DNA from: Nymphaea colorata
Taxonomy: Eukaryota > Streptophyta > Magnoliopsida > Nymphaeales > Nymphaeaceae
Length of the DNA: 64,000 bases
Direction of reading: 5' to 3'
Assembly (NCBI RefSeq): GCF_008831285.2
Contig: NC_045139.1
Coordinates: 19,356,392-19,420,391 of the forward strand
The notes below the pieces were generated by a model. The model saw only the letters and a list, made by a program, of their open reading frames with translations, was not told the DNA's origin and made no database searches. The translations under genes and the position numbers were made by a program. The first letter of the stretch is position 1. Every line of letters begins with the position of its first letter. Below are positions 47,480 through 60,068 of this stretch, in pieces.

Positions 47480-47670
47480 CATGGGTTTAACGAAGGGTTT
47501 CTTACTGAGATTGTTGGCATTCTGTCCACCTCCACATGGCCTTACAACTTCGTCTCTGATCTGTTCTTTTGAAAAGAAGAGAGAAAAACGAGAAGCCATT
47601 GTTGGTGAGCCAATGGAGGTGGGCAACCTGCCAAATGAGCTCTCTCAGAAACCCTTTGTAAAACCCATGT
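47480..47670 (+). ncRNA. MIR394: MIR394 microRNA precursor
   Basis: The 20-nt stretch at 47514-47533, TTGGCATTCTGTCCACCTCC, is exactly mature miR394. The opposite arm carries AGGTGGGCAACCTGCCAAATG (about 47617-47637), the expected star strand. The arms pair well beyond the duplex: ATGGGTTTAACGAAGGGTTTCT (5') pairs with AGAAACCCTTTGTAAAACCCAT (3') below it, and the TCCA/TGGA end opens into a terminal loop of about 80 nt. miR394 directs cleavage of LCR F-box mRNA and acts as a mobile signal in shoot meristem and leaf patterning. The loop and lower stem give a typical plant pre-miRNA of about 190 nt. The strand is fixed by the mature sequence. The precursor lies 6.8 kb from the 3' end of AMY2. 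Confidence 0.96.
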
Positions 47671-48593
47671 GATCGTTTTCCTGGCGTGGAAGGGTGAAGC
47701 CTGATCTATCCTTCCTGCAGTCCCTCTCTGCCTTCAGATCTTTTCACGGTAGGCCTGAAAGGCAAAGGAAAGAAGAAAAAGGAGCACTGGTCTTAGGGTT
47801 TATCACATTACTTCTTATCAGAAATGAATGAGCTAGTTCCTTTTTCTTGGTTTCTCTGTTTTTGTACATATTTTGTTTCTAATGACCTTGGTCACTTTCA
47901 GGCAAAAGATGAGGGAATATGTAAAGCTGCAGACAAAAATGATGAAGGGTTTGCAAGGTGACTCGGAAGCGCTGAGCATCTCACGTTGATGAGATGGGGA
48001 GGTGATATTTTTTGTAATGATGCAGTTTTCAGAAAACCAACGTTGTTCTCGGTGCGTTTTTTTCCTTTTGCTTTCCTCCTTTTAGAGGCTTATGGATCAA
48101 AAACTGAAAAAATGAACCTAGGGTTTCTAGGTATGAACTCACCGTATCTGCTGCTGTTGTTCATTTCCTCTTCCTCTTTCGGATTTGTACATGCCTTCTA
48201 CTATGCATCGGTTGTTCTATGTGTATATGTGTGCTGCAATCTGTGTCTCTGCGGCGGTTTGCTCGACGGCGATGATGATGATGATGGGTATGCTCCTGCT
48301 GAAAGATAAGGTCTAGGAGATATAGCTGGGAGATAACCCTACAAATAAATTAATGATGGTGCTGAAATTTTGAAATCTTCTTTGTTGTTGGGAACAATGG
48401 TCGTGGTAAAGTGTGTCCGCCGATGATCATGAGCATGACCCAGGTGGATTTCCAGCTATGACTGTTATTTTATTGGTCTAAACTCTGATAGCCATTAAAG
48501 CTTGCAAAAGTTCGAGCATGAGCAGCCAGTCCGGTGCTTCTTTACAGTAATGATTTTTTATCTACTACTTCATATTACATAAAATACCGTTCT

Positions 48594-57500: not shown

Positions 57501-60068
57501 AAGTTTTATGGTTCTCCAAATTTTGTACTATGTTTTTCTATCTGTGATGACAAATATTTTAAGTTTTTCCGATTTTTTGTCAAATCAAAAAAGTTCTAAT
57601 GTTTTAAAATTGAAAGTTAATGAACACATGCATTCATATATATATATATATATATATATATATGCATTTGTATGCAATATGATCGTGCTCAAGTATCATT
57701 CATAATATCAGCCATTTGAATTTTCTAGTCATCAGCTTCCGAGCTAAAATGAGTACATATACGTTGACAATATCCATGTGAAATTACATGCATTTTTCTA
57801 AGTTGCACACATACCAGTCCACCAGTGCAAGAAGTGACAGCACGTTCGTCCCATGATAGCGGAATGCCATCATAACGGTTAAATGAACCACCATGCCCTC
57901 TTGTGGTTCCAACACGATGATTAATGACTATGTCAGCCATGGGTCTGACATGATGACGCTGCAGCTCTCTGAGCAAAGATTTTAATTGGCTTTCTGAACC
58001 ATATGCAGAGTTGAGAGAGTATAAATTCTGTGGCAAGTAACCTGTGAATTGAATATAGGAAACAAGTGAATCTTTACAGACAGGGAGTATTATTATAGGA
58101 AGCAAAAATAATAGAGACGAGAATATAGAAACTGACCTTCCGGGGAGAAAGAATGAGTTGCTGGAGGCAACCATATGGAGGTGAATCCAGACTTCCCAAT
58201 ATCAGAAGCTTTATTTTCTAAGTTTTGCCACCAATTGTGCTTGTGTGATTCCCAATTGAAACCCTAAAAACAATATAATGAATAAACAAGGAATAGCCCA
58301 GCTTATATGTTGTATTTTATCTTGGACTTCATGCAAGCATAAGAATTCTACAAAAACAGAGCAACCCACTGTCTGCAAATTGCAAGTTAGTGAACCAGCA
58401 TGGCCACTTAGATATATGCCAGCAGTACTCAACTGCAGCAGTTGAAAGAGCAGAAATAGGGAACACTTTTGTCGGTCATTTTATTCTTACCTGGATGTGC
58501 CCTTTTTGCAATTTGTTTCAAAAAATTCTAGATATATGAAGGAACTAATTCTCAGCATAATAACAAATACACAAAAAATACCATGCTTTCATATCACCAT
58601 CTTGATAATTGCTGGAATATATGCCGATTAACCTAGAACTTATGACACTGATAAGAACAAGTACAAGAAAATGATGAAAAGACGAACTGACAGTTTCAGT
58701 TTGTGTCAGACCTCCTTTTGGACCATTGCTATTTATGACGTCCCTTGATAACTTGCATGCCATGAATGTATTGAGCCAAATGGCAGCCCAAAGTAGAGAG
58801 TTGATTGCATCATTTTATAATAGAGTATCGCTGTTAACATATGCTCAATCTGGATGCATACAAGCATGAACAATAAGTTTGTTGATTTCTTTGGACTAGG
58901 TATAAAATTGAGGTCATCTTTCAAAGTTACAAATGGAAACAGAAAGAAAATAGATAAAGCAATCGTCATGTGAATAAAATTTCTAAAACAAAGATAACAT
59001 GAATTGAAATCAAAGGACTGTTTCAGAAAGAAAGTTAACCAAAATGACATTTTCATGCATGCATTGCGATCAAACTAAAAACATGCATTCAATGACAAAA
59101 AGTTGCGCTACAAATAAAAAAGAAATAAGAAATTAACTTACAATTGGAAACTTTTCATCACAATTTATTAGTAATTTTGGTTTATCACAAGAAGAAATAA
59201 GTTGAAGCATGCACCTGCAAAAGTATGTCCCTTCCACCTCTTAAAGCTCCATCTACAAGACAAAGATCTCGGTTAAATAGACATCAAAATATCAGTATAC
59301 ATGCATCTCTCTCTCTTTCTCTCTCATATTTTTGAATATATGCAAACACACATACTCATGGATATGTGAGGTTTTTTAAATAATCAGAAAATGCTAGAAA
59401 ACTAATATTTTTTATTTCTAAACATGACATGTCCAATGATCATACATGTCAGTTTATGTGCATTAGCATTATGAAGATCCACTGTTCTTCTGCTGAGTAG
59501 AATGTTCACTTCAATGAATGGTACAATTTAAAGTGAATTATGTATATGCCTAAAAACAATCAAATAGGAGATTCCGTCTAGATAGTCAAGATTATGAAAC
59601 TAAGGCAACAGAGAAGGATTTATTGGATAAGGAGCAGTGAGGAGACAAAGAAGTACCTTCTAGAGATCCCATCCAGGCAGACCTTTCATTTGATACCTGC
59701 ATCAAAGGGACATGTAAGCAAAGCAGCTCGTGTTGATACAGACATTCATTTTAATTAAGGCCTCCAGTACTCAATGATCTGCCAAGGCTACATATCAGCT
59801 CTGACAGTCAGCACTTTAATTATGCAAACCGCTTTTAGTTTAAATGGGTTAGTTCTACTGTTTCAGGTCATTTGCCTAAGGATTAGATTTTCAATAAATT
59901 TCAATCCAATCAAAGCCAGTTTACCCTTCCCACTACTAGAAATTCATGAAAGTTCAATTTATTCGACAGTAAAGAGCTTTCAGAAAGAAAAAATATGAAA
60001 GAAGGACGAAAATGGAAATAGACAATACGTGAAGTAGCATAAATTCTTACATCATTCAACGAGCCCAT
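54518..60068 (-). CDS. AMY2: Alpha-amylase, family two (AMY2-type, cytosolic)
   Basis: Twelve coding exons (60068-60051, 59696-59657, 59252-59215, 58263-58137, 58041-57815, 57021-56876, 56784-56666, 55761-55673, 55586-55464, 55326-55291, 54906-54808, 54712-54518) join through GT-AG introns into 418 residues, matching Arabidopsis AMY2 (413 by memory). It is a GH13 enzyme that hydrolyses internal alpha-1,4 bonds of starch or glucan. Key positions are MADIVINHR (D111, H116), DFRFDFAKG with nucleophile D195, VGEYWDS with acid/base E220, and FIENHD with D304. The C-terminal beta domain ends [18 protein letters not shown]. There is no signal or transit peptide: the protein starts MGSLND-VSNERS, the family-two pattern. 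All catalytic residues are present. ATG 60068 was chosen because MGSLND joins in phase to the next exon and fits family N-termini; M28 in exon 2 is less likely. Confidence 0.94.
57044..57318. repeat. 137-bp tandem duplication in an AMY2 intron
   Basis: Units 57044-57180 and 57181-57318 both begin ACCTCTTTCTGCTGACA and share ATGCTTGGAAAATTTACTTT. The first base lies about 20 bp beyond the exon at 56876-57021, on the acceptor side. The copies differ at a handful of sites. Confidence 0.93.
57636..57663. repeat. (TA)n microsatellite in an AMY2 intron
   Basis: This is a TA tract of about 28 bp. It has no further significance that I can see. Confidence 0.9.

Follow-up and report, generated by a model that had tools for sequence, protein, structure and literature searches.

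The analysed window, a stretch of 64,000 nucleotides from Nymphaea colorata, contains a MIR394 locus and an AMY2-type alpha-amylase gene as convergent neighbours. We consider it probable that both are ordinary members of their families, and that their adjacency was inherited and has been passively kept. The linkage is likely ancestral, a view that depends on the gene code presumed for Arabidopsis MIR394B. As it stands, both genes are known and the arrangement is microsynteny of a kind that would be expected.

The 20 nt of miR394 matched the window exactly (20/20) at a single place, on the 5′ arm of the hairpin listed in Table 1, and no match with up to two mismatches occurred in any of 100 dinucleotide shuffles. 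The Rfam model MIR394 (RF00688) was recognised at 47501–47648 with a score of 69.4 bits against a gathering cut-off of 60, and the 201 nt at 47475–47675 folded at −91.7 kcal/mol, whereas shuffled sequences averaged −50.1 (z −9.2; equalled by none of 200 shuffles), with 47477 and 47672 as the outermost paired bases. Plant miRNAs are expected to show at most five unpaired bases in the duplex, and only three of the 20 miR394 bases were unpaired here (47520–47522). Mature sequence, Rfam score, a stable hairpin and few unpaired duplex bases, which are features expected of members of the family, were found in the window. As in RF00688 and Arabidopsis MIR394A and MIR394B, the mature miR394 is unaltered and situated on the 5′ arm, and the hairpin typical of the family is present together with its lower stem; the locus differs from the model by a longer loop region, with 52 bases versus 13 model positions in the part skipped by the Rfam alignment. 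On sequence grounds, the assignment to MIR394 is convincing.

In Arabidopsis, the F-box gene LCR is repressed by miR394. The action of miR394 on LCR and the role of MIR394 as a stem-cell regulator are described in a paper on miR394 evolution (PMC6376759). Upstream of the hairpin, no TATA[AT]A motif was present between 46.3 and 47.5 kb. Splicing has been reported for pri-miR394b of grape in a passage of PMC2822795, and a candidate intron with GT/AG ends, which may belong to the primary transcript, follows the hairpin in the window (Table 1). A search of viral contigs for exact miR394 returned 0 matches.

Table 1. Coordinates of MIR394, the AMY2-type gene and elements of the spacer between them, as positions in the window.
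Feature	Position	Strand	Basis
MIR394 hairpin	47477..47672	+	Rfam RF00688 and fold (z −9.2)
Mature miR394, 5′ arm	47514..47533	+	exact sequence match
Predicted miR394*, 3′ arm	47617..47636	+	deduced via 2-nt overhangs
Candidate intron of primary MIR394 transcript, 153 nt, 3′ of hairpin	47749..47901	+	GT/AG ends only
Fold-back repeat, 673 bp, spacer	51078..51750	.	self-alignment and fold; relatives elsewhere in window
AT microsatellite, spacer	53301..53389	.	repeat analysis
AATAAA, poly(A)-like signal 3′ of AMY2	54404..54409	-	motif only
AMY2-type alpha-amylase, coding part	54518..60068	-	gene model, Pfam and PDB match
AMY2 exons 1–6	60068-60051, 59696-59657, 59252-59215, 58263-58137, 58041-57815, 57021-56876	-	
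AMY2 exons 7–12	56784-56666, 55761-55673, 55586-55464, 55326-55291, 54906-54808, 54712-54518	-	

The alpha-amylase gene was modelled with 12 exons coding for 418 amino acids, with a terminal stop and GT-AG borders at 11 of 11 introns. A shorter model starting at 59672 (11 exons, 404 amino acids) was superseded by an in-frame upstream exon from 60068. Using the 404-amino-acid version, we obtained Pfam matches to Alpha-amyl_C2 (E 2.8e-22) and Alpha-amylase (E 2.5e-10), and the top PDB match was barley alpha-amylase 2 (E 1.2e-116). As expected of an AMY2-type alpha-amylase, GH13 catalytic and C2 domains are present in an intact full-length frame. Stretches starting at residues 192, 218 and 300, which include IENHDTG and which we take to be the sites of the catalytic residues, are present and align with barley alpha-amylase. 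The N-terminus, which bears on the presence of a secretory or plastid presequence, is short, with 32 residues ahead of GFNWES. Compared with a provisional sequence of the At1g76130 protein, 299 of 393 positions were identical (76.1%); the corresponding value for part of AMY3, likewise provisional, was 107 of 189 (56.6%). Both values come from pairwise comparisons with these two proteins and are to be taken as leads only.

The two components of the pair were already named in a preliminary description of this DNA, and both have held up: the exact miR394 in a good hairpin is borne out by match, Rfam score and fold, and the complete AMY2 gene by a model which begins exactly at 60068, as proposed there. 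The identity of Arabidopsis AMY2 with At1g76130, given in that description, is found in print in a passage of PMC6426938, where the gene is assigned to subfamily AMY4, and the AMY2 class is referred to as cytosolic in part of PMC13368610. The window gene resembles Arabidopsis AMY2 as a plant GH13 alpha-amylase with a C2 domain and a short N-terminus, and nothing about it appeared unusual by this comparison of domains, N-terminus and sequence. Six stretches in viral contigs fitted a pattern of the AMY2 protein, none of which encodes a relative. As minor features, a 64-bp direct repeat of 97% identity lies within an AMY2 intron (57057–57120 and 57198–57261), and a tandem array of a 71-bp unit with copies of 79–84% identity by blastn is located at 63531–63957, on the 5′ side of the AMY2 start codon at a distance of about 3.5 kb.

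The Rfam match ends 6,870 bp away from the AMY2 stop codon, and a Pfam scan of the spacer (47650–54518) returned 0 families in six of six frames. As a control, the same kind of scan recovered the PRONE gene of the window in three of three frames and the amylase gene in only one of three, and a short-exon gene could therefore escape it. With this proviso of the six-frame scan, MIR394 and AMY2 are adjacent in the window.

The spacer contains several repeats. The arms of its fold-back repeat are identical at 279 of 321 aligned positions with gaps excluded (79.0% by blastn over 704 columns including gaps), and the element folds at −373.7 kcal/mol with almost no loop, a value equalled by none of 20 shuffles. 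Elsewhere in the window, parts of it have matches near 23.8, 25.3, 26.6 and 27.6 kb, and a target-site duplication of at least 6 bp was not found around it. The element appears to be a member of a dispersed fold-back repeat family and is possibly a source of hairpin siRNAs. It is flanked by a pair of 153-bp repeats (50892–51044 and 52101–52253), and the spacer further contains CT microsatellites and a stretch of about 70 bp duplicated in tandem (48593–48732).

MIR394 is located on the left and read on the forward strand, AMY2 on the right and read on the reverse strand, with about 12.6 kb between hairpin start and AMY2 start codon. Because the genes converge, the spacer forms the 3′ flank of both, and we infer that their promoters are located on the outer sides of the pair. 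A promoter shared in the spacer is rejected by this layout. The preliminary description had stated that AMY2 lies some 6.8 kb off with no recognised protein gene between, which agrees with the distance and the Pfam scan, and that, provided the Arabidopsis loci are neighbours too, the pair persisted despite insertions; the mention of insertions is fair because the spacer holds the fold-back element, microsatellites, duplication and repeat pair. Its reading of the pair as a long-lived linkage is partly borne out, the two genes being linked in the window. Its further proposal of shared regulatory DNA is unsupported, given that the spacer is the 3′ flank of both convergent genes.

The ancestry of the linkage was assessed by comparison with Arabidopsis, where MIR394B is presumably At1g76135, as also given in the preliminary description (MIR394A being At1g20375), and would be located beside AMY2. 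If the code is right, the numbers 76130 and 76135 mark immediate neighbours, and a chance adjacency may be estimated at about 4 in 27,000, counting two loci with two sides each against the approximate number of genes. In the literature searched, none of the 13 papers with either code contains At1g76135, and no report of a MIR394-AMY2 linkage was found there in searches which sampled long result lists and did not always ask for linkage. The main text of the miR394 evolution paper contains no mention of synteny, collinearity, amylase, adjacency or chromosome (PMC6376759).

Both Arabidopsis MIR394 loci are, as we assume, flanked by pseudouridine-synthase and prolyl-oligopeptidase genes, which would be At1g76120 and At1g76140 at MIR394B. 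Shared flanks of this kind are expected for duplicates from genome doubling. Neither Pfam family was detected in six frames of 38.6–47.5 kb and 59.6–64 kb, nor among 130 of the 190 listed open reading frames of 1–34.4 kb. Because these outer neighbour families were not found, the block held in common with Arabidopsis comprises at most the pair.

These observations bear on the possibility that MIR394 and AMY2 met independently in Nymphaea and Arabidopsis, or that no such closeness exists in Arabidopsis. Coincidence of this kind would agree with the finding of no other shared neighbour beside the pair, and the Arabidopsis position of MIR394B is a presumed one. It is opposed by the immediate neighbourhood which the two gene codes imply, if that of MIR394B is right, and by the presumable improbability of two independent moves into adjacency, and we regard it as unlikely.

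Other plants offer some points of reference. Grape AMY2 is GSVIVT01008714001 according to a passage of PMC4388344 and is probably located on chromosome 18, as judged from neighbouring numbers, and potato AMY23 is listed as Sotub04g035480 in part of PMC5217216; the passages on these grape and potato AMY genes give no MIR394 position. For maize and sorghum, 136 and 106 MIR genes, respectively, were reported within syntenic regions in a section of PMC2773440. That case resembles ours in that a MIR gene occupies a constant setting of protein genes, whereas the depth proposed here, between Nymphaea and Arabidopsis, is greater and depends on the presumed position of MIR394B.

An alternative to passive retention is that selection holds the pair, with MIR394 enhancers located inside or beyond AMY2, the latter being a bystander, and breaks between them being harmful. 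Such selection would account for a long retention, if this were confirmed in many species, and it would suit the stem-cell role ascribed to MIR394 in PMC6376759; the AMY2 introns, the longest of which measure about 950 bp, could house enhancers. However, a 673-bp fold-back repeat, microsatellites and small duplications have all been accommodated in the spacer, and the convergent layout is at odds with a shared promoter within it, and this alternative appears improbable to us. The layout is compatible with long-range enhancers, and a regulatory block holding MIR394 and AMY2 together is possible. In its most specific form, namely a genomic regulatory block dating back to early angiosperms with stem-cell enhancers of MIR394 in the AMY2 introns or outer flank and AMY2 as a locked bystander, we judge the proposal to be quite doubtful.

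A scan of both strands of the window for miR394-like sites up to a penalty of 7 returned only the hairpin's own two arms; it covered contiguous sites in genomic DNA, with splice junctions left out and no known target as a control. Within this scope, AMY2 was rejected as a miR394 target. A coupling in cis, by overlap of the convergent transcripts or by targeting of AMY2, would fit the orientation of the genes but is very unlikely in view of this missing site and of the 6,736 bp from the hairpin to the AATAAA motif beyond AMY2, which make an overlap of transcripts unlikely.

In the preferred reading of an inherited and passively kept adjacency, MIR394 would have a separate promoter to the left of 47.5 kb, with rightward transcription and processing of the transcript to miR394. 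AMY2 would likewise have a promoter to itself, to the right of 60.07 kb, with leftward transcription yielding an alpha-amylase of the cytosolic class. Their adjacency would derive from the common ancestor with Arabidopsis as a case of conserved microsynteny, passively kept, and insertions such as the 673-bp fold-back repeat would have lengthened the spacer. Should the linkage prove general among angiosperms, AMY2 may serve as a landmark by which genuine orthologues of MIR394 are told apart from its paralogues. The locus would then also test whether long-range enhancers hold neighbouring genes in place around plant microRNA genes, as they do around the developmental genes of animals.

The window may hold a second pair of old neighbours. 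Exons for a VKOR domain of the LTO1 type were identified on the forward strand at 12536–12883 and 13519–13824, and CRAL_TRIO_2 was matched by two of 130 scanned open reading frames in a scan that gave no member names, and was placed at 20951–21259 on the forward strand from the translation. LTO1 and a CRAL-TRIO gene are presumably direct neighbours in Arabidopsis (At4g35760 and At4g35750), and the VKOR and CRAL_TRIO_2 sequences are perhaps a second conserved pair. If so, the retention of old gene pairs may be ordinary in this window, and the MIR394-AMY2 pair is less special.

Further features were recorded elsewhere in the window. A ROP-GEF gene with a PRONE domain is located on the forward strand at 34344–38640, and one of the 130 scanned open reading frames gave a weak Pfam match to TPT (E 0.0016). 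An open frame of 253 amino acids on the reverse strand (5255–6013) had no Pfam match and resembles, we presume, the plant protein family of the At1g01500 type. A region duplicated in tandem at an interval of about 1.28 kb, with pieces of 87–95% identity, extends over 24970–27434, and a tRNA-Lys (TTT) gene was identified on the reverse strand at 40884–40956 by both ARAGORN and Rfam.
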